Shown in pieces: positions 5,628-32,184 of a stretch of 36,891 bases of DNA. The notes beneath the pieces were generated by a model. It saw nothing but the letters and a program-made list of their open reading frames with translations, did not search any database and had not been told where the DNA came from. A program made the translations under genes and the position numbers. Each line of letters opens with the position of its first letter. Within the stretch, counting starts at the first letter, position 1. The stretch is from Tannerella sp. (GTDB lineage: Bacteria > Bacteroidota > Bacteroidia > Bacteroidales > Tannerellaceae), in assembly GCA_031264155.1 (NCBI GenBank), contig JAISEJ010000052.1, positions 1 to 36,891 on the forward strand. The letters are read 5' to 3'.

Positions 5628-5696
5628 GAAGCAAACAAGATATAACAGTTTTGCCCGGATGCGGCGTATCCGGATTTGGCGACAGACATGTCGACA

Positions 5697-5813: not shown

Positions 5814-5874
5814 GCCGGCGACAAAACCGCCCCGCGTGCAGTATATATATGTTCTTCATTCATAAGCGAAAAAG

Positions 5875-11396: not shown

Positions 11397-11876
11397 CTAA
11401 TGAATTTTTCCTACAATCATCCGTTCCGGTACCCAGCCGAAAAACCGGCTATCCCGTGAAATTTCCGCATTATCGCCCAACATGTAGTAATATAATGTAT
11501 TACCTAATTGTTTTATTTCGGCTATTCGTTTCACTAACAGCACATCCGTATTTTCAGGATTATTAAAAACGACAATGTCTCCGACTTTAGGTTTTTTAAA
11601 GCCCGGCAACCGATGATATCCCCAGTTACGTCCAGCATCCGCTTCTCGCCAGGAAGCAATATGTGTAAATACATTAATCAAGGGAATATCCGCCCAACGT
11701 TCCGGCAACCGCCCACCGTAGGAAAACTTGTCAATCCACAGCCACTCATTCGTCCTAATCGCAGGCTCCATACTGGCAGATGAAACCTTGCACGGCTCTC
11801 CGATACAAATCCGGATCACAATAGCCAACAGAATGATCACGGCAAAGAACAAAATTATTTTTCCAATTCGTTTCAT
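11397..11876 (-). CDS. Type I signal peptidase (short)
   Basis: N-terminal TM; catalytic-Ser box SSASMEPAI; Lys box DVLLVKRIAEI; GDNAEISRDSRFFGWV box. All catalytic boxes recognisable. Confidence 0.88.
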   Translation of the reverse strand: MKRIGKIILFFAVIILLAIVIRICIGEPCKVSSASMEPAIRTNEWLWIDKFSYGGRLPERWADIPLINVFTHIASWREADAGRNWGYHRLPGFKKPKVGDIVVFNNPENTDVLLVKRIAEIKQLGNTLYYYMLGDNAEISRDSRFFGWVPERMIVGKIH

Positions 11877-12022
11877 ATATAATTATATTTATCCGACCAA
11901 ATGCACCAACGCAATACGAACCGCCTCATCGCTCCCGAAATCCCGGAAGTCTTTCGTAAAGCAAATTTTTCCTCGCTTCTTTTTTGACATATATCATTTG
12001 CCTGTAATCCTGATTTGTTCAT
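11874..12022 (-). other. Short inter-gene region with a 49-aa ORF overlapping both neighbours by ATGA; a second-frame 33-aa ORF lies at 11889-11990; coding status unclear
   Basis: ATG overlaps the stop of the 12019 propeller gene and its TGA overlaps the signal peptidase ATG. Composition is not clearly protein-like, so it may be a decayed gene. Confidence 0.25.
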
Positions 12023-13221: not shown

Positions 13222-14403
13222 TTATTTTATCCTATAGATGATTAATACCGGATTGTCGTCATCCTTTACCCTGTTTACGGCATCCAGGTATTTTTTTGCA
13301 AAGTCCTTGTTTTTAATCGTCTTTTCGGTGAATGCGTCAATATACACATGTCGCATGATTTCAGGACTAATGGCATTAATCAAGACATCATTTTCCATGG
13401 TTGCCAGGGATGAACGCAAGTAAATCGGAAAACCTCCAAATTCGGGAATGGAGAATACATTGCCCGTTGTAATCGTTTCTTTTTTCGCTTTGTCATATAT
13501 TACCCTGAATGCTAACGATATATCCAGAATAATATACCGGGATGTTTCCATAATTTTATGTGCACCTTTTAAGTAGCCTCCTTTTATGGCTATATCCAAA
13601 GCGATGTGTGGATCCCCTTCAATCAGTGCCTGCGGGAGTCGGTTTTTGATAATATTTACATAATAACGGGGGGTAATCTCTTGATTGGGCAAGACTTCAT
13701 AAATAATATCAATTGTGCTGTTAAGCGTCAAGGCCCGGCTATTATACAGGGAATAATAATTTTCCAGTCCCCAGCCCCGGTTAATTCCATCTACCTTCGT
13801 AAAAGGCAAAAAACAGGCTGTTTTATTTTTATCCGTATCAAGTATGAAATGCTGATACCTCCCTAATTTCGAATCACTCCAATCATTTACAATATGATAT
13901 TTTGAACCGTCAAAAGTAAAAAAAGTCATTCCCCAGGAACCATTTAAAGAAATATCACGAATATATTTCCCATTAAAATCATATAACATGATTTTATCCA
14001 ATACGGGAACAAGAACTCCCACAGTTGAATCCATGACAACCATATCGTTTACTGCAGGGGGATATTCTCCCGGCCCAGCTCCCGTTGCCTGTATTTTGGC
14101 ATGAAAACTCCCATCTCGATTAAAAACAAAGACACTTAGAGTAAGTTCGTCATACACCAGTATCTTGTCTTTTCTTAAATGCACTCTTTTTACATCCCCG
14201 ATTAAACATTCGGGACCGGTTTCTAAAATAACAACTTCTACCGAGTCAGTATTTATCAGGAAAGAACCATCCAGTTCTTCCTCCAACCGGTCTATATCCA
14301 CAATAATCTGCTCCAGATTCCCGGGAACTGTTCCGGCAACTCTTTTTTTACAGCCGGTAATAAATAATCCTATACATATCAGTAATAATCCTGTTTTTTT
14401 CAT
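13222..14403 (-). CDS. 6-bladed beta-propeller lipoprotein, copy B
   Basis: Lipobox GLFITGC; ATGAGPGEYPP; C-term DDDNPVLIIYRIK. Confidence 0.8.
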   Translation of the reverse strand: MKKTGLLLICIGLFITGCKKRVAGTVPGNLEQIIVDIDRLEEELDGSFLINTDSVEVVILETGPECLIGDVKRVHLRKDKILVYDELTLSVFVFNRDGSFHAKIQATGAGPGEYPPAVNDMVVMDSTVGVLVPVLDKIMLYDFNGKYIRDISLNGSWGMTFFTFDGSKYHIVNDWSDSKLGRYQHFILDTDKNKTACFLPFTKVDGINRGWGLENYYSLYNSRALTLNSTIDIIYEVLPNQEITPRYYVNIIKNRLPQALIEGDPHIALDIAIKGGYLKGAHKIMETSRYIILDISLAFRVIYDKAKKETITTGNVFSIPEFGGFPIYLRSSLATMENDVLINAISPEIMRHVYIDAFTEKTIKNKDFAKKYLDAVNRVKDDDNPVLIIYRIK

Positions 14404-14404
14404 A

Positions 14405-14530
14405 TTAATCTTTTTTTATGTGATAAAGTAATATCCATGTATTCATTTCTTTCGGGTCATCGCCGCGCCTGAGTACGTTCATTTTGGACCGAAGCCTTTT
14501 TGTTATCATTCCTTCTTTCATGTTTTTCAT
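14405..14530 (-). pseudogene. C-terminal fragment of an F/G/J-type propeller gene
   Basis: Reads MKNMKEGMITKRLRSKMNVLRRGDDPKEMNTWILLYHIKKD*; matches the tail EGMITKEQKERFQSKMNALRRGDDTENMNPWILLYHVKKD of the full copies. Confidence 0.85.
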
Positions 14531-17223: not shown

Positions 17224-17520
17224 TCAATATAAAGAGGGCGCTGCATGTTCTTTCCGATGACTGCATGACGTCAAAAACAGGAACACAGTAACGCTTAATA
17301 ATGATGTTACGCAGTACTTTTTGTGCACTGCAAGTTGACGCCGGAAGGCGTCTGATTTGGATAACCCCGTGCTGGGCCGAAGGCGCAGCTCGGGGTTATC
17401 CGCCTTGGACGCCTTCCGGCGTCGACCTGCAATACACATATATATGCCATGCGTAACATCAGTTAATAATAAATTTCTCATAATTAATAGCTGTTTAAAA
17501 TAAAAGATAGTTGTTTTCAT
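17224..17520 (-). pseudogene. N-terminal fragment of an F/G/J-type propeller gene interrupted by a MITE
   Basis: MKTTIFYFKQLLIMRNLLL[insert]SVTVFLFLTSCSHRKE then truncation; parent N-term is MRNLLLSVIVFIFLTSCSHRKEQ. Confidence 0.85.
17295..17470. mobile_element. Small palindromic MITE-like element with TIRs and ~8-bp target duplication
   Basis: TIRs tgatgttacgca (17302) / tgcgtaacatca (to 17461); flanking ttaataat at 17295-17302 and 17463-17470; nested inverted repeats gacgccggaaggcgtc/gacgccttccggcgtc and ggataaccccg/cggggttatcc. Confidence 0.85.
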
Positions 17521-17524
17521 TTTC

Positions 17525-17674
17525 TTATATTTGATTGATTTTTGTCAAAAAACACTTTGCGGATTCAAAATATCCAACTGTCAATTCGGGATTATCCTTG
17601 TCGGGAATAAAGACATCGGACAGTTTTTCCATCAGGAATATCGAAGAAATTTCCCACATAACCGATCTGTTCAT
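17525..17674 (-). pseudogene. C-terminal remnant of a thioredoxin-like gene
   Basis: ATGA overlap with the copy E stop; ends FIPDKDNPELTVGYFESAKCFLTKINQI*. The same tail sequence recurs at 29459-29560. Confidence 0.6.
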
Positions 17675-18876
17675 TGTGTAACCTCCGGGACTTTTATTGA
17701 AAAGGATATGATGAGCGGATTGGCGTCAACATCCGTATTTTGTAAATACTTTTTCAATTTGCTCTCCGGCATTGCGGATAACGTCTTGTACGCCTTATTG
17801 AGCCAGTAATAGTTGGGAGACGAATAAAAAACATCCCCCTTCGCACAATGTACGTATTTCAGGAATAGATTACTGGTATTTTCTTTTTTGGATAATTTAT
17901 CCGAATCAAAGACTATACTCTTCCCTGTTTGCTTGTCATAAAACAAGTGAACTTCATTGCCTCCTTCGAATACGGTATATAGATAATTGTCCGTATCTAT
18001 TACGTTACCCCAAGGTACGATATAACCTTCTTTCTGTTTTTCCTTAAAGTCATTCCGTTCTCCGTAGATCAGCGTCATCTCTTTCCTGTCCTTTTCGGAA
18101 AGCATCCTGTAATCGGATTTGTTGCGAAACTTGTAATACGGATGCACTTCCCGGTCTTTAACGCAATATATAATGTCGCTCAGTATCGGCTGATAATAAA
18201 TTGACCCGTCGGCATGGCAATCAACAGGCCGCATCGTACTAAGTTCTATATTCCGTGTTTCCATAGGAAGCTGTGCCGAGACAAAACGGCAATCCTTATC
18301 AAGGAAGTGAATGCAAGTCTTCCGCATTTCCGGCTCACTGTATCCTTCGTTGTCGCTGGAAAAGAAATTTATATATCCGTCTGCGCCATCAGATGTTATA
18401 TGCTCCCGATTAAAGCCTAATGGAATAATCTGTTCCTGTCGACCATCTTCATTATAAACAAACAGTCTTCGTGAAAAGTTATCACTAATCAGTATTTTAT
18501 TGTGGACAGGATCTACCTCAAAGCCGGTTATGCGAATATATTCGCTTGGCCCCTGTCCCGTATCCGATATCTTATTGATAAACTTTCCTTTTTCGGTAAA
18601 TATAAAAATCATGTTGAATTTTGTGTTTAATATAAAAAAACGACCATTCATAATCTTCATCTTTAGAATCTGGTCAATGAGCGCATCATCGGTTGTTTCT
18701 AATCGTATCGTGTCATAATCGGCTACAAAATTCATAAAGTCGTCCGATGGGTTTACTATGTCAATCGTTGTTCCGCTAAATTCCGTCCGGGGCTTATTGT
18801 CTGCGCAGGACAGCAATATAACGGCTATTATCGAAAAAATTAAAGCTGTTAATAAGGAAGATACGGATATTTTCAT
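17671..18876 (-). CDS. 6-bladed beta-propeller lipoprotein, copy E (close paralog of A)
   Basis: SCADNKPRTEFSGTTIDIVNPSDDFMNFVADYDTIRLETTDDALIDQ nearly identical to A; different N-terminus. Confidence 0.83.
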   Translation of the reverse strand: MKISVSSLLTALIFSIIAVILLSCADNKPRTEFSGTTIDIVNPSDDFMNFVADYDTIRLETTDDALIDQILKMKIMNGRFFILNTKFNMIFIFTEKGKFINKISDTGQGPSEYIRITGFEVDPVHNKILISDNFSRRLFVYNEDGRQEQIIPLGFNREHITSDGADGYINFFSSDNEGYSEPEMRKTCIHFLDKDCRFVSAQLPMETRNIELSTMRPVDCHADGSIYYQPILSDIIYCVKDREVHPYYKFRNKSDYRMLSEKDRKEMTLIYGERNDFKEKQKEGYIVPWGNVIDTDNYLYTVFEGGNEVHLFYDKQTGKSIVFDSDKLSKKENTSNLFLKYVHCAKGDVFYSSPNYYWLNKAYKTLSAMPESKLKKYLQNTDVDANPLIISFSIKVPEVTQ

Positions 18877-18877
18877 A

Positions 18878-20098
18878 TTAATCTTTTTTTACGTGATAAA
18901 GTAATATCCAGGGATTCATGTTTTCTGTGTCATCGCCGCGCCTGAGCGCGTTCATTTTGGATTGAAACCTTTCCTTTTGCTCTTTTGTTATCTTTCCTTC
19001 TTTCTCATGCTGATCATACCGGTTAATATCTTCCATGATTCTCTCTGAATCATATATTCCAATCAGTGCATCCTCCGTCTGACCGCAAAATTCATTCCCA
19101 TAAAACATATATTCCAGATCGTCATCTAAACTGCCGACAGATGTCTTTAATTCCTGAGTACGGGCATTGTATACAAAGAATATATCGAATATCTTATAAA
19201 TAGAATTAAAACAAAACAAGTCCCCAACCCGGAACATCTTTTTGATTGATGTAATGCGATCTTTCTGCAGTAACAGATCAAGCGATTTCGTTCTTTCCGT
19301 ATAAATATCCTCAATTTCCTGTGGAGAGTATCTCAATGAACCGAAATCAACCCAATAGAGACGGCTCATTTCCGTATCGCGGAGAAAATAAACCGTGTCG
19401 TACATAGGTTTGCAAAATAATACTCCCTCTTCCTGAGGAGCAAACACCGGATTTCCCATATTGATTGGATATTGTTTGGATGGAAAAAACCTTTCTTTTA
19501 TTCCTCCGTGAATATCCCTGACTACAAGGCTGTACAATTCACCTCTTTTCGGCTGATCCAGAAACAGATAGAATAAACCGTTTTTATAATGCAACTGGTC
19601 GGCATACTGGTTAATTTTGATGGATTCCTTCACCTCTCCGTCAAACGTACAGGACAAAATCGACTGCCGGTAATTATCCAGCAAGTAAATAAGCTGTTCT
19701 TCTTCATTTACGGTAAAATCATTCAATTCGATAATTTCTTCCGGCCCCTGCCCTTTGGAACCTATCCTGTTCAAAAAATTACCCCGCATATCGAAACGAT
19801 AGACAGCACTCGATCTTTGGGATTCCAACACAAAAATATTATCACCGCAAATCGCCACTTTTCTTATTTCACCTAATATGCAGGAGACATTAAATTCTAA
19901 CGGAATTACATCAATTTTATCAACAATTGTTGACAGGAGAATTGTATGATTTATATCAGTACTAATATCCTGCTCCGGTACCGGTATAGTCACATAATCC
20001 CCATGAATAATGCTCCCTCTCTGTTCTTTCCGATGACTGCATGACGTCAAAAATATGAACACAATAACGCTTAATAATAAATTTCTCATAATTGACAA
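18878..20098 (-). CDS. 6-bladed beta-propeller lipoprotein, copy F
   Basis: MRNLLLSVIVFIFLTSCSHRKEQ; IGSKGQGPEEIIEL; tail NPWILLYHVKKD. Confidence 0.83.
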   Translation of the reverse strand: MSIMRNLLLSVIVFIFLTSCSHRKEQRGSIIHGDYVTIPVPEQDISTDINHTILLSTIVDKIDVIPLEFNVSCILGEIRKVAICGDNIFVLESQRSSAVYRFDMRGNFLNRIGSKGQGPEEIIELNDFTVNEEEQLIYLLDNYRQSILSCTFDGEVKESIKINQYADQLHYKNGLFYLFLDQPKRGELYSLVVRDIHGGIKERFFPSKQYPINMGNPVFAPQEEGVLFCKPMYDTVYFLRDTEMSRLYWVDFGSLRYSPQEIEDIYTERTKSLDLLLQKDRITSIKKMFRVGDLFCFNSIYKIFDIFFVYNARTQELKTSVGSLDDDLEYMFYGNEFCGQTEDALIGIYDSERIMEDINRYDQHEKEGKITKEQKERFQSKMNALRRGDDTENMNPWILLYHVKKD

Positions 20099-20221: not shown

Positions 20222-20620
20222 TTAATTACTGCCGGATCCCGATCCCGAACTTCCGCCACTCAAGAAATCGTCACAATTTACAGGACTACACATAGAATTT
20301 CCTCCTCTTTTACAATTAACCGCCAAATTTTCAAATGTCACTTTCAGAGTACCTCCAGCAGGTATTGTGAAGGTTATGCCACCAATAACAACAGGTATTC
20401 CCTGGCCTACTATCGTAATACTACAAGGCCCTGTAGTTCTATCATATATAGTACTGGAAGAACTGCCGTCACCTCCACCGGAAGAATTGGACTGCGCAAG
20501 AATCTCTGTGTGCAGTCTACCGTCCATAATTCCATAATTATTGACGGCATGTCGAATATTTAATCCCAACATAAGAGCTAATGCTCCTGTTCCTAAAATT
20601 GTCAATTTAATTTTTTTCAT
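20222..20620 (-). CDS. NVEALA-type small secreted protein 1 (conserved leader, variable Cys cargo)
   Basis: MKKIKLTILGTGALALMLGLNIRHAVNNYGIMDGRLHTEILAQSNSSGGG leader; 4 Cys in the C-terminal domain. Confidence 0.8.
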   Translation of the reverse strand: MKKIKLTILGTGALALMLGLNIRHAVNNYGIMDGRLHTEILAQSNSSGGGDGSSSSTIYDRTTGPCSITIVGQGIPVVIGGITFTIPAGGTLKVTFENLAVNCKRGGNSMCSPVNCDDFLSGGSSGSGSGSN

Positions 20621-20790
20621 TATATATTATAATTATAGTAAATAAAATATTTGTAAACTCTCTATGCTTAAAATAACCACCTTCCACCCCTTGCGGGGCA
20701 TCGTCGATGCTGTTTGCGTAGCAGGCCGTAGAAGCGCTGCCGGACTTGATTAAAAATTATATTCTTCATAATCATCCCTTTCTTTTAATG
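20470..20790 (-). repeat. Leader/upstream cassette copy 1 (includes decayed 3' tail of a TMTC-like gene)
   Basis: Near-identical DNA shared with 24320-24635, 25988-26305 and 31612-31935. Confidence 0.88.
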
Positions 20791-20817
20791 TAGAGACGCG
20801 ATGCATCGCGTCTCTAC
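20790..20817. repeat. 28-bp perfect palindrome gtagagacgcgatgcatcgcgtctctac
   Basis: Direct reading; second near-perfect copy at 24635-24662. Confidence 0.93.
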
Positions 20818-20902
20818 TGCAAGGCTATCACTCTGCAACTGCAGTGCACAAAACCATCTCTCGGAAAATATAAATTCCACATTCGATTTGGATATTTTCA
20901 TA

Positions 20903-22111
20903 TTAATCTTTTTTCACGTGATAAAGTAATATCCAGGGATTCATGTTTTCCGTGTCATCGCCGCGCCTGAGCGCGTTCATTTTGGACTGAAACCTTTCCT
21001 TTTGCTCTTTTGTTATCATTCCTTCTTTCTCATGCTGAGCATACTGGTTAATATCTTCCATGATTCTCTCTGAATCATATATTCCAATTAGTGCATCCTC
21101 CGTCTGACCGCAAAATTCATTCCCATAAAACATATATTCCAGATCGTCATATAAACTGCCGACAGACGTCCTTAATTCTTGAGTATGGATATTGTATACA
21201 AAGAATATATGGATTATCTTATAAAGAGATTTAAAGCAAAGCCAATCCCCAACCCGAAAAACATGATCAATTGATGTGACACGGTTTTTCTGCAGTAACA
21301 GATCAAGCGACTTTGTTCTTTCCATATAAATATCCTCAATTTCCTGTGGAGAAAATCTTAATGAACCGAAATCAACCCAATAGAGACGGCTCATTTCCGT
21401 ATCACGGAGAAAATATATCGTGTCGTTCATGGGTTTAGAAAATAACACGCCTTCCTCTTGTGGAGTAAACGCTTGATGTGTTCGACTGATTGGATATTGT
21501 TTGGACGGAAAGAACCTTTCTTTTATCCCTCCGTGAATATCCCGGACTACAAGGCTGTACAACTCACCTTTTACCGGTTCGTCATAAAACAGATAGAATA
21601 AACCGTTTTTATAATGCAACTGGTCGGCATACTGGTTAATTTTGATGGCTTCCTTCACCTCTCCGTCAAATGTGCAGGACAAAACAGTCTGCCGGTAATT
21701 ATCCAGCAGATAAATAAGCTGTTCTTCTTCATTTACGGTAAAATCACTCAATTCGATAACTTCTTCCGGCCCCTGTCCTTTGGAACCTATCTTGTTCGAA
21801 AAATTGCCCTGCATATTGAAACGATAAACAGTACCCGGTCTTTGGGATTCCAATACAAAAATATTATCGCCACAAATCGCCACTTTTCTTATTTCACCCA
21901 ATATACAGGAGTCGTCAAATTCCAGCGGAATGATATCAATTTTGTCAATAAATGTTGACAGGGGAATTGTATTACTCATATCAGTATTAATATCCTGCTC
22001 CGGTACCGGTATAGTCACATAATCTTCATTAACGCTCTCTCTCTGTTCTTTCCGATGACTGCATGATGTCAAAAACAGGAGCGTAATAATGCCTAATAAT
22101 AAATTTCTCAT
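20903..22111 (-). CDS. 6-bladed beta-propeller lipoprotein, copy G
   Basis: Likely start MRNLLLGIITLLFLTSCSHRKEQ; close paralog of F and J. Confidence 0.83.
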   Translation of the reverse strand: MRNLLLGIITLLFLTSCSHRKEQRESVNEDYVTIPVPEQDINTDMSNTIPLSTFIDKIDIIPLEFDDSCILGEIRKVAICGDNIFVLESQRPGTVYRFNMQGNFSNKIGSKGQGPEEVIELSDFTVNEEEQLIYLLDNYRQTVLSCTFDGEVKEAIKINQYADQLHYKNGLFYLFYDEPVKGELYSLVVRDIHGGIKERFFPSKQYPISRTHQAFTPQEEGVLFSKPMNDTIYFLRDTEMSRLYWVDFGSLRFSPQEIEDIYMERTKSLDLLLQKNRVTSIDHVFRVGDWLCFKSLYKIIHIFFVYNIHTQELRTSVGSLYDDLEYMFYGNEFCGQTEDALIGIYDSERIMEDINQYAQHEKEGMITKEQKERFQSKMNALRRGDDTENMNPWILLYHVKKD

Positions 22112-22190
22112 AATCATCCTTTTTCTCTTATAAATTCCTTTAAATTCCACATTCGATTCAGATTTGATAATATATGCTTTCATTTTCGGT

Positions 22191-22787
22191 TTAGAAATAA
22201 CGTTTTTTGATATTTTTCAAGTAAGCATTATTTAATTGAGGGAATCCCTTGTCGGGAACAAATAGATTGGAAACGTTCAAAGTACTGTCCAAAACAAAAT
22301 AATATGGATAACCAATATTTTCTGCCGGCAAATTAAGATTTGGCGTGTTCGCTACATTAAATTCATGAATTCCATACAGGGGTTTTTGTCTGTTGAAAAT
22401 TTTATTATTTCTATATGCCCCTAAAAACAATATGTTATCTTTATCTATCGAATCAATCCATTGAAGTAATGTATGTATGGAATAACTTACACAACTTTCG
22501 CAATTCATTTCGGAAAACCGGTATACAAGTATCACATTTTGACCTTTCTTGAAAAATTCCTGCAGAGGGATCACATTATCTGACGAATCTTTGACAAGAA
22601 TATCGTTCAATCGGATATTACTGTTTTCAATTTCTGTCGAAAGATTTGTTCTAAGTACATTTAATTCGTCAGACGGTTCTTGAATCAATTTTTTATCTTG
22701 CTTCTTATATTCACGAAAGTTCATGAATGTGAAAAAAATTGCAGAAAGCAAGACTGTAATAATAATGATTGTGGATTTCTTATTCAT
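22191..22787 (-). CDS. Membrane-anchored thioredoxin-like protein
   Basis: N-terminal TM; NVILVYRFSEMNCESCV (CXXC); YPYYFVLDSTLNVSNLFVPDK. Confidence 0.68.
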   Translation of the reverse strand: MNKKSTIIIITVLLSAIFFTFMNFREYKKQDKKLIQEPSDELNVLRTNLSTEIENSNIRLNDILVKDSSDNVIPLQEFFKKGQNVILVYRFSEMNCESCVSYSIHTLLQWIDSIDKDNILFLGAYRNNKIFNRQKPLYGIHEFNVANTPNLNLPAENIGYPYYFVLDSTLNVSNLFVPDKGFPQLNNAYLKNIKKRYF

Positions 22788-22796
22788 GGCTATCGG

Positions 22797-24017
22797 TTAA
22801 AAATCTTTTAACTGAAAAAATACCAGTACGGGATTGTCATCTTCTGATAACCCTTTCAGCTTTTCCTTGTCCTCTTCTGTTATGATAGAACTGTTATACA
22901 GCAAAGAATCGTTCTTGTCTGGAAAATAGAAAGAAATAAACCAGTTATCCGATGTCGCTACGGGAAATGTCATCGCAGGTATTTCATTCCTGTCATCGCA
23001 TATTGCATCGGTGCCACCTGTTAGATTACCGGTGTTTTTGTCCCGGTATACTATGGTTTGCAATCCGGTGAAGTCGTTTTTCAGGAAAAAAGTATTCTGG
23101 GATATGGTTTCAAGGTATTCGCCGAGGTGATAGTAATAATCATTTTGAGTTGTGGCGCTCTCAAATTCGTTCATACTGCCTTTGATATAGCGTTCGGGAA
23201 GTTTCTTCTTGCTGTAATCCATAATATATTTCGCTTCCAGTCGATTCGTCTCACTTATGTAGTGATAAACAGTATCGGTATACTTTTGGGTTATTTTGAT
23301 TGCATTGTTATTAGGATATAAATAATTATATCCACCATAATTGACGATGTCGGATAATACAGGTATAGCGACCGATTTCAATTTGAAGTTCTTGTCGGTT
23401 ACAAACAGCGTATAATCTCCCAAAAGTCCGAGATGTCCATTTCCTTGTCCATCAAGCGCTTTGAAAATATATCCATCCGGAATGACCGCGAGATTGTAGA
23501 ACCCGAAAGGCAATCTCGTTTTTCGGATAAATTGACCGGATGCTGTAAAAAATAATAAAAACGAATGTTGATAAGCGACCAGTTCATCATTGTCCGCATC
23601 ATAAGCTATGTCATATAACCTGATAAGCTCGCCCGGTCCCTGTCCATAGGAAATCCTTATAATAAATTCCCCTTCCCTGTCAAAAATAGCGATTCCTCCT
23701 CCTTTAAACCTGTCGTAAATATAGATATGAGAATCCGTGGCGATTACTTTATAAATGACGTCAAGCAGACTCTCGTCTGTAGTTTCAAGCGGTATCAGTT
23801 TGATTTCTTTTACCAAGGAGCCAAAATCAAAAGATTGTCTTTTAAGAAACGGATTCAAATCTACCTTTATTACAGAATCGATTTCCGTATGCAAGATCGT
23901 GGTGAAATCAAGGTGCAGGGAGGCAATTTGCTCTTCGGTAAAATGTGAACTTTTATTCTGTTGGTTTACACAACTAATAAAAAAAATGATCAAAATCAGA
24001 ATGATATATTTTTGCAT
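22797..24017 (-). CDS. 6-bladed beta-propeller lipoprotein, copy H
   Basis: Lipobox IFFISC; IKLIPLETTDESLLDVIYKV; YGQGPGEL; DDNPVLVFFQLKDF. Confidence 0.82.
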   Translation of the reverse strand: MQKYIILILIIFFISCVNQQNKSSHFTEEQIASLHLDFTTILHTEIDSVIKVDLNPFLKRQSFDFGSLVKEIKLIPLETTDESLLDVIYKVIATDSHIYIYDRFKGGGIAIFDREGEFIIRISYGQGPGELIRLYDIAYDADNDELVAYQHSFLLFFTASGQFIRKTRLPFGFYNLAVIPDGYIFKALDGQGNGHLGLLGDYTLFVTDKNFKLKSVAIPVLSDIVNYGGYNYLYPNNNAIKITQKYTDTVYHYISETNRLEAKYIMDYSKKKLPERYIKGSMNEFESATTQNDYYYHLGEYLETISQNTFFLKNDFTGLQTIVYRDKNTGNLTGGTDAICDDRNEIPAMTFPVATSDNWFISFYFPDKNDSLLYNSSIITEEDKEKLKGLSEDDNPVLVFFQLKDF

Positions 24018-24093
24018 ATGTTTTATTTTTTATATAATAAAAATGGGATGAGAGATACTCTTTGAATAAAAATAAGTATCTCTCAAAACCTGT

Positions 24094-24465
24094 TTAGCAA
24101 CCTACCTTTCTACAATTAGTATTTCCATATGGACAGATAATTTCATACCTATTGTTTGAGTTTGTCTGTGATGAAGCTCCACTTCCACTGATAGATCCGG
24201 CTCCATATGATACACTCCCGTTGCCACTAGACGATTTCGTTAATGGACATGGCCTCTTCTCCTCTCTTTCATCTTTATAGAATCCTTGCCCTTGCCAAAA
24301 ATTACTCCAACCGCCCCATTCTGCTGAAGAATTGGACTGAGCCAACACTTCCATGTGTAATTTACCGTCCATAATTCCATAATTATTGACGGCATGTCGA
24401 ATATTTAATCCCAACATAAGAGCTAATGCTCCTGTTCCTAAAATTGTCAATTTAAATTTTTTCAT
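24094..24465 (-). CDS. NVEALA-type small secreted protein 2
   Basis: Same leader (MKKFKLTILGTGALALMLGLNIRHAVNNYGIMDGKLHMEVLAQSNSS); unrelated cargo ending IICPYGNTNCRKVGC. Confidence 0.8.
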   Translation of the reverse strand: MKKFKLTILGTGALALMLGLNIRHAVNNYGIMDGKLHMEVLAQSNSSAEWGGWSNFWQGQGFYKDEREEKRPCPLTKSSSGNGSVSYGAGSISGSGASSQTNSNNRYEIICPYGNTNCRKVGC

Positions 24466-24635
24466 TGTGTATATAATCATAATAAATAAAATATTTGTAA
24501 ATTCTCTATGCTTAAAATAATCACCTTCTACCCCTTGCAGGGCATCGTCGATGCTGTTTGCGTAGCAGGCGATAAAAAGCGTTGCCGGAATTGATTAAAA
24601 ATTATATTCTTCATAAACATCCCTTTCTTTTAATG
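24320..24635 (-). repeat. Leader/upstream cassette copy 2
   Basis: Near-identical DNA to the other three cassettes, including the decayed TMTC tail ending cttttaat. Confidence 0.88.
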
Positions 24636-24662
24636 TAGAGACGCGAAGCATCGCGTCTCTAC
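24635..24662. repeat. 28-bp near-palindrome gtagagacgcgaagcatcgcgtctctac
   Basis: Differs from 20790-20817 by one central base. Confidence 0.93.
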
Positions 24663-24790
24663 TCATCCTCCAGTCGCCGGTTGATTTCTTTCAGTTTGGC
24701 GATGCTGTCCGTATCCTGTTGATTGCAGCTACCAAAAGATGCTGCAATTAACAGGAATATAATGCTGCGGTATAATGTTTTCATAATCAT
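24659..24790 (-). pseudogene. N-terminal fragment of the 29579 thioredoxin-like gene, stop codon supplied by the palindrome
   Basis: MIMKTLYRSIIFLLIAASFGSCNQQDTDSIAKLKEINRRLEDE* vs MIMKTLCRSIIFLLIAASFGSCNQQDTDSIAKLKEINRRLEDEFYTV... at 30178. Confidence 0.9.
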
Positions 24791-25947
24791 TTTTTGAAGT
24801 AGTATTTTATGAGTAAGGGATTGTCAAATTCACTGTATTGGTTTTTCCTTTCGATATTTTCCGCGTCTAAAATCGTATCGGGTGCGACGGTTCTTTTTTG
24901 TTCAATATTTGACAGTTCCGGCATGAAACCTATAACAAATTTTTCACTCCAGTAAACAGGATAAAAGTATGCGTTTTCCTTTGTTTTCTCGAAAATCAAA
25001 AACTGTTGATTCCTTTTGTCGTAAAAGATATTTACATCTTTGCTTTTCCTCATAACCTGAGTGTATATGTAATCCGAATTGCCTCCCGATGTTCCGAAAA
25101 TACAATTTATAATTTCGGATGTCCGGACTTTCTCCATATATTCCAGTAATATCTTTTTTGTTCTTGCGTCATTATGTTTTTCAACGGGGGGAATAACAAG
25201 TTTATCCAAGTCAATGTTTAATTTCCCAAAATCCCATGTATATGCTACGGAAAGTTTCCCGTCAGCGGACAATTCATAGATGTTATTATCAACCGGCCTT
25301 ACCAGGTAATTGCCGTAGGGAAACAGGGGTGTGCTGATTCTTCTGTAAAAATTATCCGTTTCGGGGAAACATTCATTGACGAAACGGTTTTTACTTTTCG
25401 AATAAAATTTAAGCCTGTTATTATAATCGAAAGTCCAGAAAGCAATCATATCGGAATTTAAATATTTAATGTATTTATAAGCGCCGTTCCCGCTTTCCGG
25501 CAAATTATATTTCCGTATAAAATTACCGTTCATATCGTATTCGTGCAATTTTGAATCAATGGCAGAAACAAATATAATTTTGTTATTATCCTTATCAATA
25601 TCAAAATCTGAGATATGGTTGTATTGTTCCGGTCCCTGTCCCCGGTTGTCAATACTGAACAGAAATTTCCCGCTATGGTCAAATGCGAGTATTTTTGATA
25701 AGTTGTAATCAAAAATGTATAAATTATTGTTATAACAAACAAGTCCGGTTATGTATTTGATAAGAGATTCATCATTCGTTTCGAGCGGAATGATTTCTAC
25801 CTTGTCGAATATGTCGAAAATAGATACATCATTTGAAATATTGTCAATATCAACGAAGATAGCATTTGTTTTATTACCGGTTTGCTCTTTACATCCGTAT
25901 GAAATAAATAAAGAGAGAAGCATTATACATGCAATGATTTGTTTCAT
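24787..25947 (-). CDS. 6-bladed beta-propeller lipoprotein, copy I (paralog of K)
   Basis: Real start MKQIIACIMLLSLFISYGC. The track's upstream start runs out of frame through the NVEALA-3 leader. FDKVEIIPLETNDESLI, NRGQGPEQY, FDNPLLIKYYFKK. Confidence 0.83.
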   Translation of the reverse strand: MKQIIACIMLLSLFISYGCKEQTGNKTNAIFVDIDNISNDVSIFDIFDKVEIIPLETNDESLIKYITGLVCYNNNLYIFDYNLSKILAFDHSGKFLFSIDNRGQGPEQYNHISDFDIDKDNNKIIFVSAIDSKLHEYDMNGNFIRKYNLPESGNGAYKYIKYLNSDMIAFWTFDYNNRLKFYSKSKNRFVNECFPETDNFYRRISTPLFPYGNYLVRPVDNNIYELSADGKLSVAYTWDFGKLNIDLDKLVIPPVEKHNDARTKKILLEYMEKVRTSEIINCIFGTSGGNSDYIYTQVMRKSKDVNIFYDKRNQQFLIFEKTKENAYFYPVYWSEKFVIGFMPELSNIEQKRTVAPDTILDAENIERKNQYSEFDNPLLIKYYFKK

Positions 25948-25972
25948 TCTGATTTCTTTTAAAAAGGATGTG

Positions 25973-26143
25973 TCAAAGGTGATTTGAACCGCTACCTCCA
26001 CCGGAAGAATTGGACTGTGCAAGAATCTCCGTGTGCAGCTTACCGTCCATAATTCCATAATTATTGACGGCATGTCGAATATTTAATCCCAACATAAGAG
26101 CTAATGCCCCTGTTCCTAAAATTGTCAATTTAAATTTTTTCAT
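25973..26143 (-). CDS. NVEALA-type small protein 3, truncated 56-aa stub (absent from the ORF track)
   Basis: MKKFKLTILGTGALALMLGLNIRHAVNNYGIMDGKLHTEILAQSNSSGGGSGSNHL*; 171 bp, in frame. Confidence 0.75.
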   Translation of the reverse strand: MKKFKLTILGTGALALMLGLNIRHAVNNYGIMDGKLHTEILAQSNSSGGGSGSNHL

Positions 26144-26305
26144 TATATTATAATTATAATAAATAAAATATTTGTAAACTCTCTCTACTTAAAATAACCA
26201 CCTTACACCCCTTGCGGGGCATCGTCGATGCTGTTTGCATAGCAGGCGATAAAAAGCGCTACCGGAATTGATTAATATTTATATTCTTCATAATCGTCCC
26301 TTTCT
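25988..26305 (-). repeat. Leader/upstream cassette copy 3 (attached to the intact TMTC-like gene 3' end)
   Basis: Only copy in which the TMTC tail is part of an intact gene. Confidence 0.88.
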
Positions 26306-27564
26306 TTTAATAATTCCCGAATCTCTTTCTTTAACGAATCCGTATCGTACCACACGCGGCTTCGGATGTTGGCATAGATTCCCATGTACAAAAGATAGAC
26401 CGCCGACAGGATGACGACGACAATCCTGTACTTCTTCTTTTTCCTGAAAATCCGAACCGTATAAAAGGACAAGGCAAAAGCAATGCCGGTTGTGGCTATA
26501 TAGGCATAACGGTCGGCAACCACCGCAAAACGCGAAAGCGAAATAATATGCAGGGCTACCGCTATATGGATCAGGAAAAACAGCAAGCTGAAAAGAATTA
26601 CTTTGTTGGAAAGGACAGACCGCCCGAACGAAATCGCCAGGAGGATGATCAGCGAAGGATAAATCAGCAGCCAGCCCGGCAAAGGGGCGCCCACCAGCGA
26701 AGGAAAGGGATATAAATAAGACAGCTTAAAGGGAAAAACCGTTTTGAAAAGATATTCCGAAAAAGCATAGCAGGCATATACAAAACGCTGCCATAAAGGA
26801 TAAGTATCCCTCTGGCTGATGATCGATTTTCCATCCGATTGCGAAAGCATGGTCAGGATACCGAAAACAAACGCCAGGATGAAAAACGGGGCTGCCTGCT
26901 GCCATACTTTTTTATCCCTGAAACTGTGTCCGGTCATCCAGTACAGCAGCAGCATCCAGACAGGAAACGTGACGGCCTGTTCTTTCCCCAGGAAAGAAAA
27001 AACAAAAAGCGCCAGCGTAAAAGCGTAGTACCTGGACTTCCCGTATTTTAAATACAGAAGAAAACTGTAACTCGCCGCTAAATAGTAGAAGGCATAGACC
27101 AGGATTTTGGATGCGCTCATCCAAGCTACCGATTCCACGTTGAACGGGTGTACGGCAAAAATCAAAGCCGTCAGGAACGCAACCAAAGCAGCGTTTTCCG
27201 TCTTTATTTTCGTGTTGATTTCCAGCAACAGCCTGAAACAGCAGTAAACCAGGCAGGTATTGGCGATATGCAACAGCAAACTCGCCAGATGAAACGGGAA
27301 GGGATCGTACCCGAAAAGCGAATGCAAGCTTAAATAAAGCAACTCATTGAAAGGCGCATATTGACCGTGATAAAATTCGGTAAGTATCGCCCACAGGTTC
27401 CTCCACGTAAAGCCGCTGCCGGTGTAATGATTCATCACCACCCACTGATCGTCCCAGTAGTACAGGAAATTATTCCCCAAAATCGGGAAATAGACTGAAA
27501 TCACAACTGCAGCCAGCAACGCAGGGTAAAGACCGTTTTTTAATTTGTCGACAGAAAGTTTCAT
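26272..27564 (-). CDS. Polytopic membrane protein, TMTC/GT-C-like (DUF1736-like region), without TPRs
   Basis: NNFLYYWDDQWVVMNH; ALIFAVHPFNVESVAWMSASKILVYAFYYLAA; many TM segments. Confidence 0.68.
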   Translation of the reverse strand: MKLSVDKLKNGLYPALLAAVVISVYFPILGNNFLYYWDDQWVVMNHYTGSGFTWRNLWAILTEFYHGQYAPFNELLYLSLHSLFGYDPFPFHLASLLLHIANTCLVYCCFRLLLEINTKIKTENAALVAFLTALIFAVHPFNVESVAWMSASKILVYAFYYLAASYSFLLYLKYGKSRYYAFTLALFVFSFLGKEQAVTFPVWMLLLYWMTGHSFRDKKVWQQAAPFFILAFVFGILTMLSQSDGKSIISQRDTYPLWQRFVYACYAFSEYLFKTVFPFKLSYLYPFPSLVGAPLPGWLLIYPSLIILLAISFGRSVLSNKVILFSLLFFLIHIAVALHIISLSRFAVVADRYAYIATTGIAFALSFYTVRIFRKKKKYRIVVVILSAVYLLYMGIYANIRSRVWYDTDSLKKEIRELLKERDDYEEYKY

Positions 27565-28208
27565 TCTTTTTCACTTATAAATTTCTTTTCTACAAATTGA
27601 TAAAAATAATCTGCAAAATATTTTGTCTCAATATCCAGCACAAAAGAAGTAACAACGCGATCCCCGGATGTCAAAAGCAATAACGCCGGAACATTATTCG
27701 CCTGAACTAACCCCATATCTTTATTGCCGAATTCATAAATGTGGATGTCTATATTATTTGATTTCAAATATAGCCTGACATCATCTCCCACATAATCAGC
27801 CAATATTACAATGCGGTCTTTCCCGATTTTCCTTTTTAATTTATTGAGTAATATGAACTGTTCGGAAATGCATGAATTACAGGCTAACAGCGTATAATAT
27901 AATACAACCTTTTCACCCCGCAGAATTTCCGACAAATTTATTGTTTTTTCTTCCTGCAATTTCTCATTTGGATTTAAAAACCGATCACGGTTCACTTCTT
28001 TAACATTAACAGGATGAAATCTGTTATTTTCATATTGCATATATTGTAATATCTGCTCAATAACATATTGATTTCTGTTGCCGTTCACCGGCTCTGTCCT
28101 GTCATCAAATGTGCTGTGATTTTTATTTTTATTGAATAAGAAAACAAAAACAAAAACAGAAAACAGCAGAACAAAAGCTGTTAATAAGGAAGATACGGAT
28201 ATTTTCAT
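27561..28208 (-). CDS. Membrane-anchored thioredoxin-like protein
   Basis: N-terminal TM MKISVSSLLTAFVLLFSVFVFVFLF; VVLYYTLLACNSCISEQ (CXXC); overlaps the start of the TMTC-like gene. Confidence 0.65.
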   Translation of the reverse strand: MKISVSSLLTAFVLLFSVFVFVFLFNKNKNHSTFDDRTEPVNGNRNQYVIEQILQYMQYENNRFHPVNVKEVNRDRFLNPNEKLQEEKTINLSEILRGEKVVLYYTLLACNSCISEQFILLNKLKRKIGKDRIVILADYVGDDVRLYLKSNNIDIHIYEFGNKDMGLVQANNVPALLLLTSGDRVVTSFVLDIETKYFADYFYQFVEKKFISEKE

Positions 28209-28209
28209 A

Positions 28210-29415
28210 TTAATCTTTTTTCACGTGATAAAGTAATACCCAGGGATTCATGTTTTCTGTGTCATCGCCGCGCCTGAGCGCGTTCATTTTGGACTGAAAC
28301 CTTTCCTTTTGCTCTTTTGTTATCATTCCTTCTTTCTCATACCGGTCATACCGGTTAATATCTTCCATGATTCTCTCTGCATCATATATTCCAATTAGCG
28401 CATCCTCCGTCTGACCGTAAAAAACATTCCCATAAAACATATACTCCAGATCGTCATATAAACTGCCGTTAGACGTCCTTAATTCCTGAGTACGGATATT
28501 ATATACAAAAGAAATTTGTAATCCTTTATATATTGAGTTAAAATAAAGCCAGTCTTTAACCCGGAAAACATGATCAATTGATGAAGTGCGATGCATTAGA
28601 TCATACGACTTTATTCTTTCCATATAAATATCCTCAATTTCCTGTGGAGAATATCTCAATGAACCGAAATCGACCCAATAGAGATGACTCATTTCCGTAC
28701 CACGGAGAAAATATATCGTGTCGTTCATGGGTTTAAAAAACAATACTCCCTCCTCCTGTGGAGTAAACACATGATGACCCATATTGAGGATATATTGTTT
28801 GGACGGGAAAAACCTCTCTTTTATTCCTCCGTGAATATCCCTGATAACAAGACTGTACAACTCGCCTTTTACCGGTTGATCCTGAAACAGATAGAATAAA
28901 CCGTTTTTATAATGTATATGATCGGCATACTGATTAATTTTGATGACTTCCTTCACCTCTCCATCAAACGTGCAGGACAAGATCGACTGCCGGTAATTAT
29001 CCTGCAGGTAAATAAGCCGGTCTTCTTCATTTACGGCAAAATCTCTTAATACGACAAGTTCTCCAGGCCCCTGCCCTATGGAACCTATACTGTTCAAAAA
29101 ATTGCCCTGCATATCGAAACGGTAAACAGTACCAGCACCCGGCCTCCGGCGTTCCAAGACAAATATATTATCGCCGCAAATCGCCACTTTGCCGATCTCA
29201 CCTAATATACAGGAGTCATTAAATTCCAGCGGAATTATATCTATTTTATCAACAAACGCTGACAGGGAAATTACATGATCCATATCACGATTCATATCCT
29301 GCTCCGGTACCGGTATAGTCACATAATCCTCATTAACGCTCTCTCTCTGTTCTTTCTGATGACCACATGACATCAAAAACATGAACACAATAACGCTTAA
29401 TAATAAATTTCTCAT
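28210..29415 (-). CDS. 6-bladed beta-propeller lipoprotein, copy J
   Basis: MRNLLLSVIVFMFLMSCGHQKEQ; IGSIGQGPGEL; NPWVLLYHVKKD; paralog of F and G. Confidence 0.83.
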   Translation of the reverse strand: MRNLLLSVIVFMFLMSCGHQKEQRESVNEDYVTIPVPEQDMNRDMDHVISLSAFVDKIDIIPLEFNDSCILGEIGKVAICGDNIFVLERRRPGAGTVYRFDMQGNFLNSIGSIGQGPGELVVLRDFAVNEEDRLIYLQDNYRQSILSCTFDGEVKEVIKINQYADHIHYKNGLFYLFQDQPVKGELYSLVIRDIHGGIKERFFPSKQYILNMGHHVFTPQEEGVLFFKPMNDTIYFLRGTEMSHLYWVDFGSLRYSPQEIEDIYMERIKSYDLMHRTSSIDHVFRVKDWLYFNSIYKGLQISFVYNIRTQELRTSNGSLYDDLEYMFYGNVFYGQTEDALIGIYDAERIMEDINRYDRYEKEGMITKEQKERFQSKMNALRRGDDTENMNPWVLLYHVKKD

Positions 29416-29458
29416 AATTGATAACTGTTTAAAATAAAAGATAGCTGTTTTCATTTTC

Positions 29459-29560
29459 TTATATTTGATTGATTTTTGTCAAAAAACACTTTGCGGATTC
29501 AAGATGTCCAACTGTCAATTCGGAATTATCCTTGTCGGGAATAATATACTCCCATATTGG
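29459..29560 (-). pseudogene. C-terminal remnant of a thioredoxin-like gene (second copy of the 17525 tail)
   Basis: Same tail DNA as 17525-17610 (ttgattgatttttgtcaaaaaacactttgcggattcaa...). Confidence 0.6.
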
Positions 29561-29578
29561 TTTAAATAGCCATTTATT

Positions 29579-30178
29579 TTAGATGTCATATTTTCCACGA
29601 ATTTCTTCTAAATATATTTTCGTCAGTTCCGGATTCATTTTGTTGAAGATATGCAGAAATGATATTTTCATACTTTTATCCAGCACAAAGAAAAATGGCG
29701 CCTCAATTTCCGTAACAGGCAGATTTATGCCGCTTAACATTCGTTTTCCGTAACAGTTATCCCGGAGTCTCAATGGATAGTCGCCGGCAATCAGAATCGT
29801 TTCGTTATGCTCAAAATCAGTAAATTTCTCTTTTATCAATTCAATTGCCGAATCAACGCACGGCGTACAGGTATTGGTTGAAAAACAGAAAACCAGGCGA
29901 GGGTTTAATGCCAGTTTGTACAGCGGAAATGTGTTAATCGAATCTTTTCCCCAAAAAACTTGTTTGTTGTCAAGGGATGTTTGGGAATATTTAATGGTGC
30001 GGCGGTATATCTCCAGACTGATTCGTTCAGCTTCTCTTACGGTATAGAACTCATCCTCCAGTCGCCGGTTGATTTCTTTCAGTTTGGCGATGCTGTCCGT
30101 ATCCTGTTGATTGCAGCTACCGAAAGATGCTGCAATTAACAGGAATATAATGCTGCGGCATAATGTTTTCATAATCAT
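29579..30178 (-). CDS. Thioredoxin-like lipoprotein
   Basis: Lipobox ASFGSC; RLVFCFSTNTCTPCVDSAIELI (CXXC); ATGA overlap with copy K. Confidence 0.72.
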   Translation of the reverse strand: MIMKTLCRSIIFLLIAASFGSCNQQDTDSIAKLKEINRRLEDEFYTVREAERISLEIYRRTIKYSQTSLDNKQVFWGKDSINTFPLYKLALNPRLVFCFSTNTCTPCVDSAIELIKEKFTDFEHNETILIAGDYPLRLRDNCYGKRMLSGINLPVTEIEAPFFFVLDKSMKISFLHIFNKMNPELTKIYLEEIRGKYDI

Positions 30179-31320
30179 TTTTTGAAGTAGTATTTTACAA
30201 GTATAGGATTGTCGAATTCGTTGTATTGATGTTTTCTTTCAATATTTTCAGGGTCTAAAATGGCATCTGGAATTATGGCGTCGAAGTTTTCCGGCAGAAG
30301 ATTTTCTGGAATACGTCCAATCACAAAGTCTTCCGTCCAATAGATAGGATAGAAACCGACATTTTCCGTCGTTTGTTCAAAGAGCAATGTCTGTTTTTTT
30401 ATTTTATGATACATTATATTTATGTACTTGTCCTTTCTCATTATTTGTGAATACGCGTATTCGGCGTTTCCTCCCGACATTCTAAAAATATAGTTGACGA
30501 CTTCGGATGCGGAGATCCGTTTCATGTAATTTGAAATTCTTTCTTTATCCCTGCCATCGAACGACGGCACATCCGGTTTATAATCAATATTTAATTTGCC
30601 GAAATCCCATGTGTATGCAACGGAAATTGTTCCGTCGGACGACATTTCATATATATTATTGTCAATGTTTCTTATTATATAATTATCATGGGAAAAAGTT
30701 TGAATATGGATTTGGTCGAAAAAAGTCTCTTCTTCGGGAAAACATTCGCTGAATATACGATTTTCCTCTTTTGAGTAAAATTTGAGTCTGTTATAATAGT
30801 CGAAAGTCCAGAAGGCTATTACGTTTTTGCTTAAATGTTTTATGGAAATGTATCCGGCGGCAATCTGCGGCAGTTTGTATTTGCTTAAAAACTGTCCGTT
30901 TAAGTCATACTCATGAAGTTCCGCAACGACAGGGGCTATAAACGATAGTACCGCTCTTTCCCCGTCGATATCAAAATCCGAAATATACGTGTATTGGTTT
31001 GGCCCCTGTCCGCGGTTGTCTATTTTAAACTTGAATTTCCCCGCCGCATCAAATGCGAGAATCGTGGAATTATAGTCAAGAATATAGCACGTATTATTAT
31101 GGCATACCAGTTTGCGTATGGATCTTATCAGGGATGAATCGGTTGTTTCCAATGGGACGATTTCAACTTTTTCAAATAAATCAAAAATGGAAACCTCATC
31201 CTGTTTATCTATATCCGTTATTATAATAGCTTTTTCATTTGCTTTCCTGTTAGCCGGATTACAACCGTATAGAATGGAAAGTGAAAATAATGTGACAATG
31301 TATTTTATGTATTGCTTCAT
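30175..31320 (-). CDS. 6-bladed beta-propeller lipoprotein, copy K
   Basis: Likely start MKQYIKYIVTLFSLSILYGC; FEKVEIVPLETTDSSLI; NRGQGPNQY; FDNPILVKYYFKK. Confidence 0.83.
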   Translation of the reverse strand: MKQYIKYIVTLFSLSILYGCNPANRKANEKAIIITDIDKQDEVSIFDLFEKVEIVPLETTDSSLIRSIRKLVCHNNTCYILDYNSTILAFDAAGKFKFKIDNRGQGPNQYTYISDFDIDGERAVLSFIAPVVAELHEYDLNGQFLSKYKLPQIAAGYISIKHLSKNVIAFWTFDYYNRLKFYSKEENRIFSECFPEEETFFDQIHIQTFSHDNYIIRNIDNNIYEMSSDGTISVAYTWDFGKLNIDYKPDVPSFDGRDKERISNYMKRISASEVVNYIFRMSGGNAEYAYSQIMRKDKYINIMYHKIKKQTLLFEQTTENVGFYPIYWTEDFVIGRIPENLLPENFDAIIPDAILDPENIERKHQYNEFDNPILVKYYFKK

Positions 31321-31410
31321 TTTAGTATGTGTTATCGTAATTGATAAAATAATTATTTTTACATGAAAAATCAAGGAAGACTTCAACAAAGAAGTCTTCC
31401 TTTGAAAAAA

Positions 31411-31761
31411 CTACAGGCAATAATGATGCTGACGTCCAGACCATTCACATGGAATGGTGTATTCACCAGAATAACAATTAGTATTTTTCCAACATTGCCC
31501 ATAATACTGTCCGCATGTAATTACTACTTCCGGTAATTCATAACCGCCGCTTCCGCTTCCGTCTCCGCCGCTGCCACTACCATTACCTGATCCGCTACCG
31601 CCCGAACCGCTACCTCCACCGGAAGAATTGGACTGCGCAAGAATCTCCGTGTGCAGTTTACCGTCCATAATTCCATAATTATTGACGGCATGCCGAATGT
31701 TTAATCCCAACATAAGAGCTAATGCTCCTGTTCCTAAAATTGTTAATTTAAATTTTTTCAT
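31411..31761 (-). CDS. NVEALA-type small secreted protein 4
   Basis: Same leader; GSGSGGSGSGNGSGSGGDGSGSGG linker; cargo TCGQYYGQCWKNTNCYSGEYTIPCEWSGRQHHYCL (5 Cys). Confidence 0.82.
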   Translation of the reverse strand: MKKFKLTILGTGALALMLGLNIRHAVNNYGIMDGKLHTEILAQSNSSGGGSGSGGSGSGNGSGSGGDGSGSGGYELPEVVITCGQYYGQCWKNTNCYSGEYTIPCEWSGRQHHYCL

Positions 31762-31935
31762 TGTATAATATATAATAAATAAAACATTTGTAAACTGTAT
31801 ATTTGTAAACTCTCTCTACTTAAAATAACCACCTTCCACCCCTTGCGGGGCATCGTCGATGCTGTTTGCGTAACAGGCTGTAGAAACGCTGCCGGAATTG
31901 ATTAATATTTATATTCTTCATAATCATCCCTTTCT
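31612..31935 (-). repeat. Leader/upstream cassette copy 4
   Basis: Near-identical DNA to the other cassettes; continues into a deleted TMTC-like pseudogene. Confidence 0.88.
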
Positions 31936-32088
31936 TTAACGTATCCCTATCGTGCCGTACGCGGCTCCGGATATGGGCATAGATCTCTCCGTACAAAAGA
32001 CAGACCGACGACAGAATGACGACGACAATCCTGTAGACTGAAATCACAACCGCAGCCAACAGCGCAGGGTGTCGACAGAAAGTTTCAT
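31905..32088 (-). pseudogene. Deletion derivative of the TMTC-like membrane protein gene
   Basis: PALLAAVVISVY joined to RIVVVILSSVCLLYGEIYAHIRSRVRHDRDTLKK; matches both ends of the 26272-27564 product with ~1.06 kb missing. Confidence 0.88.
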
Positions 32089-32184
32089 CCGTATTTTCCA
32101 TTTGGGATTATAAACCCGGAATGTCCCTGCCCGGTGCAAACGGCAGGCAGGGAGCGTTTCCGGTTTTTATTTGGAAAATACCCG

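Follow-up and report, generated by a model that had tools for sequence, protein, structure and literature searches.

When secreted peptides of one bacterium begin alike and end differently, it can be asked which part has moved, the leader or the cargo behind it. This question is posed by a 36,891-nucleotide (nt) stretch of DNA from Tannerella sp. (contig JAISEJ010000052.1; hereafter the window), in which four peptide genes, A to D, share an almost constant N-terminal leader. The window is contig 210 of a 2.34-Mb metagenome-assembled genome (MAG) that is 67% complete; among relatives that bear a name, the nearest is isolate Cc175_bin96 (JAIRMH), a Tannerella sp. MAG, which we take to be part of a termite-gut series. 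In this Tannerellaceae-like gut bacterium the locus is probably an array of modules, each pairing a secreted, cystine-rich peptide with a propeller lipoprotein, and comparison of sequences indicates that the cargo stays with its downstream propeller and that the leader is replaced or homogenised. L-numbers below denote loci and G-numbers genomes of the comparison set, G000 being the window genome.

A first-pass annotation had described four genes with nearly identical leaders, alike also in their DNA, and four or five cysteines in the three full copies, and each of these points was borne out. Genes A (20222-20620), B (24094-24465), C (25973-26143), and D (31411-31761) are all open reading frames, on the minus strand, which the annotation had left unmentioned. 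Their 47-residue leaders are 96-98% identical in protein and 90-96% identical in DNA over a 126-nt core, and the cargos hold 4 (A), 4 (B), and 5 (D) cysteines. Leader differences are mostly synonymous (6 synonymous and 0 nonsynonymous between C and D; 4 synonymous and 1 nonsynonymous codon between A and D), and we read the leaders as being under purifying selection. The DNA homology begins about 165 nt upstream of the ATG (about 290 nt for D and C) and ends near codon 50-52 (about +150), past which mean identity per 30-nt block drops from 0.82-0.98 to 0.25-0.35. Chance is excluded as the source of the likeness because BLAST between the copies gives E values of 1e-104 to 1e-148. Three more leader copies lie elsewhere in the window genome, one with an in-frame stop.

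The label "NVEALA-type" given to these peptides did not hold: Pfam NVEALA (PF14055) has no match to A-D even at E=10, and the leaders end in YG...E(I/V)LAQ, which is not NVEALA-like. Each runs from MKK through a hydrophobic run and a spacer of about 20 residues, longer than in a usual signal peptide, to LA|Q within the motif E-[IV]-L-A-Q. Profiles of LAQ and NVEALA leaders show only a distant likeness (hhalign 90.8%, E=1.2e-6); LAQ leaders are a distinct class, distant kin of NVEALA leaders. NVEALA peptides too are small precursors of Bacteroidales, in which an N-terminal hydrophobic segment is followed by a spacer, a conserved motif ending in Ala, and a short Cys-rich cargo; they usually lie beside a propeller or other lipoprotein, and cargos D (strongly) and B (more weakly) match members of the family. 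The window leaders differ in lacking a PF14055 match, in their Ser/Gly linker and terminal motif, and in their processing genes. Linkers are richer in Gly, Ser, Thr, and Asn in the LAQ class (0.66 versus 0.36, p=5e-7), and the LAQ leader is best read as a Sec-type processing tag followed by a Ser/Gly linker.

The annotation had further proposed that unrelated cargos are swapped behind a fixed module. A fixed leader and an exchangeable cargo were both found, and inside the window the cargos do look unrelated. Across genomes, however, they are ordinary conserved families, though one alignment of all cargos gave no convincing common fold. Divergence of the ordinary, alignable kind, which the annotation had said would speak against its proposal, is seen between species (A 55%, D 53%) and not among the four copies. 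Cargo A has an ortholog with the same leader class in a sister genome (L018:4207-4617; cargo 55%, leader 79%); no homolog of it behind an NVEALA leader was shown. Homologs of cargo D stand behind a canonical NVEALA leader in two congeners (L023 and L024), and between D and L023 the cargo is 53% and the propeller 55% identical in amino acids, with leader likeness at background level. Cargo B resembles that of L092, which has an NVEALA leader in another congener (43% over 49 aligned residues, shuffle p of about 7e-4; propeller 58%). There the gene order peptide-propeller-thioredoxin is kept, and propeller and thioredoxin align over 1.9 kb at 66% nt identity. In a third swap, outside the window, the cargo of LAQ-class L019 in G001 lies behind the NVEALA leader of L098 in G027 (cargo 57%, leader 32%). 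Checked against 3000 shuffles, the D, A, and L019/L098 matches scored above all; B is the weakest match, since one shuffle scores above it. A D-cargo profile run over 393 genomes of the order found the window copy only, and the D-type matches relied on here are therefore congeneric. The exchange of leader and cargo is real, one cargo being found under two leader classes in related species.

What stays with the cargo is the propeller. Genes A, B, and D are each followed directly downstream by a DUF5128 six-bladed propeller lipoprotein, and in about 50 regions from the window genome and its relatives a recognised propeller comes next after 37 of 58 leader genes, and another lipoprotein after several others. 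A rank correlation over all peptide-propeller pairs was uninformative; a permutation test on the significant cargo matches among 61 such pairs was used instead. In the 19 pairs with strong cargo matches (z>=7), mean propeller similarity is 0.38, compared with 0.06 when permuted (p=0.0002), and the tracking holds also where leader classes differ. The propeller beside cargo A matches the one beside cargo A in G001, and propeller D matches the one beside a D-type cargo in G027. Because cargo similarity tracks the adjoining propeller, we take cargo and propeller to be the inherited module and the leader to be the exchanged part, which turns the proposed swap around.

Leaders also appear to be homogenised inside genomes by concerted evolution. 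Leader identity is 97.6-99.2% among three leaders of G001 and 90-96% in G000, and only 82-86% between these genomes, although cargo A is orthologous there.

The leader class is associated with the genes nearby. Surveyed with homemade profiles over about 90 regions, at leader-to-gene distances of up to 9 kb, LAQ leaders have a GT-C glycosyltransferase and/or a GtrB-like GT2 as neighbours on 10 contigs and a Wzy_C or transglutaminase gene on none; for NVEALA leaders the neighbours are a Wzy_C ligase and/or a transglutaminase-like protein on 17 contigs and GT-C or GT2 on none (Fisher p=1.2e-7). Both sets occur in single genomes (G000, G001, and G012), which argues against lineage as the cause. 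By profile, the GT2 of related clusters matches GtrB (5ekp, E=1.6e-116) and also ArnC structures. The GT-C protein has an invariant W-D-D in 8 sequences and KEQ-type motifs, and the TMTC O-mannosyltransferases likewise have a first-loop DD and a KEQxxT-like motif (PMC7801869). Among known systems the GT2 and GT-C genes come nearest to ArnC/ArnT and to O-mannosylation by TMTC and protein O-mannosyltransferases (PMT); the GT-C protein here is without a TPR tail, and its Pfam PMT_2 score is under the cut-off, and membership in PMT_2 is not claimed. Sugar transfer and its acceptor are putative.

Accessory signal peptidase I genes (S26) are dense in leader loci, 14 in 674 kb or about 21 per Mb, the background being about 4 per genome of about 3 Mb. 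By map reading, 13 of 20 accessory S26 regions picked regardless of leaders hold a propeller, thioredoxin, GT-C/GT2, Wzy_C, or transglutaminase gene. The window copy matches PF10502 (E=5.7e-25) with its SSASMEP box (Ser) and VKR box (Lys) intact. In the S26 tree, the copies associated with GT-C form two supported groups, one of which includes the window copy (100/99), and 16 of 17 Wzy/transglutaminase-associated copies form a separate, weakly supported group (89/77) that includes L188 of the window genome itself. The S26 copies of the two leader classes thus appear largely separate. A dedicated signal peptidase encoded next to its substrate is familiar from SipW with TasA; here too an accessory S26 is encoded with precursors that it likely processes, the difference being that two S26 types are split with two leader classes and that glycan-transfer genes belong to the set.

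Genes for signal peptidase and for Wzy_C O-antigen-ligase-like and transglutaminase-like proteins recur together in islands across Bacteroidales (L100, L162, L170, L181, L183, L184, and L188), several of these islands also with a thioredoxin-DUF1573 protein and NVEALA peptides. As a fixed partner of the peptides, SusC/D was rejected, being present in only 2-4 of 60 leader loci.

The features of the array are as follows.

31411..31761, minus strand: peptide precursor D, LAQ leader, Gly/Ser linker of about 30 residues, 43-residue cargo with 5 Cys
30175..31389, minus strand: DUF5128 beta-propeller lipoprotein, putative partner of cargo D (PF17170 E=2.7e-42; 55% amino acid identity to the L023 D-type propeller)
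29579..30178, minus strand: thioredoxin-fold CxxC lipoprotein of the D module (ResA PDB profile match, E=2.4e-4; collinear with L023)
28210..29454, minus strand: orphan A-type propeller without a peptide gene of its own (PF17170; score ratio 0.77 to propeller A)
27561..28208, minus strand: thioredoxin-fold CxxC protein (73% amino acid identity to L018:2197-2844)
26272..27564, minus strand: GT-C glycosyltransferase-like membrane protein (PMT_2 under cut-off; DD, HP, and KEQ motifs)
25973..26143, minus strand: leader C, a stub whose cargo is lost, fused to DNA found 72 nt downstream of the L023 cargo stop
24787..25947, minus strand: propeller C (listed reading frame to 26073; homology favours a start near 25947)
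24659..24790, minus strand: remnant of the thioredoxin-like gene of the C module, cut at the palindrome
24635..24662, no strand: 28-bp palindrome, 5' edge of leader cassette B
24094..24465, minus strand: peptide precursor B, leader and 4-Cys cargo (cargo homolog behind the NVEALA leader of L092)
22797..24017, minus strand: propeller B, putative partner of cargo B (PF17170 E=8.7e-29; 58% amino acid identity to the L092 propeller)
22191..22787, minus strand: thioredoxin-fold CxxC protein of the B module (collinear with L092)
20903..22183, minus strand: orphan A-type propeller without a peptide gene of its own (score ratio 0.84 to propeller A)
20790..20817, no strand: 28-bp palindrome, 5' edge of leader cassette A
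20222..20620, minus strand: peptide precursor A, leader and 4-Cys cargo (ortholog L018:4207-4617)
18878..20098, minus strand: propeller A, putative partner of cargo A (PF17170 E=1.9e-34; AlphaFold pLDDT 84.9, nearest solved structure 4raa)
13222..14403, minus strand: orphan propeller whose G001 ortholog adjoins a peptide gene (86.5% nt identity to L019:555-1769)
11397..11876, minus strand: accessory signal peptidase I (S26) with intact motifs and a C-terminal tail truncated by a stop (PF10502 E=5.7e-25)

The DNA edges of these units are sharp and lend support to leader exchange. Positions 24661-25989, which hold propeller C and the thioredoxin stub, are 89.2% identical in nt to L023:4835-6159. 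The L023 block begins 72 nt past the cargo stop codon; its window equivalent begins directly after leader C, which reads on into intergenic DNA of the next propeller gene, and at its other end lies the palindrome 24635-24662. This 28-bp palindrome, GTAGAGACGCGATGC(A/T)TCGCGTCTCTAC, is found at about 16 places in the window genome and at the edges of two leader cassettes, and at that frequency it may be merely a handy recombination site. Cassettes A and B begin at palindromes, and in both the palindrome meets a scar of the final GT-C codons at an identical base. Since the GT-C gene is intact only upstream of leader C, the scars suggest that leader cassettes A, B, and D derive from the leader-C region.

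Smaller traces in the array include a GT-C gene remnant at 31820-32101, which with the thioredoxin-like remnant at 24659-24790 is a sign of duplication and decay; a remnant of an A-type propeller 3' end (14397-14519) beside the orphan propeller 13222-14403; and a repeat at 17295-17470 that also occurs on contig 154 of the window genome (up to 96.7% over 90 nt) and lies beside copies of an A-type propeller start. The near-duplicate propellers 12019-13212 and 17671-18876 (score ratio 0.83) are without a peptide gene and have no close relative in the fetched loci.

How might such an array work? Each unit would consist of a Sec-type leader and Ser/Gly linker, acting as an address label for one processing pathway, a cystine-rich cargo, and a cognate six-bladed propeller lipoprotein, behind which a thioredoxin-like CxxC protein is often encoded. 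After Sec translocation an accessory signal peptidase I specific to the leader class would cut the precursor at about LA|Q. The thioredoxin-like proteins, whose CxxC and cis-Pro are kept in 20 of 20 aligned sequences and whose profile matches ResA, would help disulfides to form or rearrange. The Ser/Thr-Gly linker would optionally be glycosylated by the GT-C/GtrB-like pair, and the cargo captured or displayed at the cell surface by its own propeller. The cargo itself might act as a signal, a structural ligand, or an antagonistic toxin. As the array changes, cargo-propeller modules would duplicate and lose parts and the leader cassette would spread and be homogenised by recombination, so that a module carries whichever leader suits the local processing genes. 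More tentatively, secretion may turn on two keys that recombine freely: the leader class would pick one of two complete processing sets (signal peptidase and glycan-transfer enzymes) in the same cell, and the cargo would be keyed to a private propeller. For NVEALA-type peptides and DUF5128 propellers, both met repeatedly in Bacteroidales, the locus supplies a testable logic in which the leader would name the processing pathway and the cargo the partner, with S26, thioredoxin-like, and glycan-transfer genes in the same system. It may also offer a natural, recombining secretion tag.

Several observations weigh against this modular account. Leader homology, leader/cargo exchange, cargo-propeller co-inheritance, the association of class with machinery, and the S26 tree can be read from the comparisons made here; cleavage, secretion, glycosylation, peptide-propeller binding, and surface location we infer from sequence. 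Pairs matched by cargo also have leaders more alike than at random (p=0.001), because within-class pairs share ancestry. Pairing is not strict, since about 43 of 96 propellers are without a recognised upstream peptide gene, and the propeller match of L019/L098 is partial, at a contig end. Confidence in the GT-C fold model is low (pLDDT 69; best Foldseek E=0.011, top fold matches oligosaccharyltransferase and ArnT), so the class of the protein rests mainly on sequence motifs. The homemade profiles are a weak point of gene class assignment, and three leaders missed by the regular expression and sorted by profile as LAQ were moved by eye to NVEALA (ends NINALA, NVEAQA, and NIEALG). Only about 20 genes, in 7 genomes, make up the known LAQ class, no GT2 lies within the window of this 67% complete genome, and the window S26 lacks its C-terminal tail, with a stop after VGKIH.

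Among other explanations, toxin/immunity arrays, in which cargos would be secreted toxins, propellers their cognate immunity proteins, and orphan propellers orphan immunity genes, keep some weight while being unlikely. Cognate pairing, the many orphan propellers (43/96), the duplicated and broken units, and rapid cargo diversity are all expected of them; orphans and broken units would fit toxin/immunity turnover and equally receptor families. No toxin-like domain was found, however, and among propeller folds of known role the closest are those of ligand-binding or surface lipoproteins (BtuG1, XusB), not of immunity proteins. Toxin/immunity would be compatible with the modular account as its end use.

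The fold of the propeller bears also on peptide signalling or ligand delivery, a rather doubtful reading in which the propeller would be the surface receptor or carrier of its own peptide. The good model of propeller A (pLDDT 84.9) finds 4raa first and then other propellers, including Bacteroides surface lipoproteins. With the DUF5128/DUF4934 propeller 4raa (BF0058) the family and fold are shared (TM-score 0.72/0.82); 4raa differs in being without known function, and the propeller here covaries with an adjoining peptide. In the literature searched, nothing functional was found for NVEALA, DUF5128, DUF4934, or BF3164, NVEALA going unmentioned. Some fold neighbours have peptides or disulfide-rich proteins as ligands (LRP6 with DKK1 or constrained peptides), and others are Bacteroides surface binding lipoproteins. 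This likeness is nevertheless generic to beta-propellers (TM-score 0.3-0.5), and neither a regulator nor a TonB receptor is a recurrent neighbour of the peptides (SusC in 4 of 60 loci).

That the peptides are ribosomally synthesized and post-translationally modified peptides (RiPPs), with a leader guiding a core-modifying enzyme and the GT-C, ligase, or transglutaminase-like proteins as maturases, is improbable. A constant leader, a variable Cys-rich core, and cluster-specific enzymes that follow leader class do recall RiPP precursors. The leader, however, is hydrophobic and of signal type and has a signal peptidase associated with it, cargos are up to 90 residues long, the recurrent enzymes act outside the cytoplasm, and Wzy_C and GT-C are glycan-transfer folds, not peptide cyclases. 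The first-pass annotation had seen no known RiPP maturase in the window, and Pfam and NCBIfam scans of the neighbours found none either; what it had passed over are candidate processing genes, namely S26 (11397-11876), GT-C (26272-27564), and three CxxC thioredoxin-fold proteins, all of which recur in other such clusters, the GT-C only with LAQ leaders. The system is best read as not a RiPP in the usual sense.

Ordinary paralogy, one duplicated peptide gene with a conserved secretion signal, a quickly diverged mature part, and no leader exchange, would suit leaders under purifying selection and signal regions that often outlast the mature parts of duplicates, but is very improbable given the same cargo and matching propeller behind a different leader class in other species, a homology that stops sharply at the leader/cargo junction and takes in about 165 nt of non-coding DNA upstream with its GT-C 3'-end scar, and leaders homogenised within genomes.

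Apart from the modular array, locus L189 (G026:C78) has at 4754-6157 a propeller similar to propeller B (score ratio 0.59), with a thioredoxin and a LAQ-type signal peptidase; no peptide gene was recognised there, and a 2991-residue reading frame lies nearby. In the window itself, 5875-10563 on the plus strand encodes a 1562-residue protein in which an AcrB-type RND permease (residues 2-1021) is fused with an ABC ATPase (1292-1436), and which is followed by an ABC-2-like permease. The nearby RND/ABC exporter was rejected as part of the peptide system, with few or none in 60 leader loci and a convergent orientation; the fusion is unusual, and it adjoins OEP, HlyD, and RND genes.

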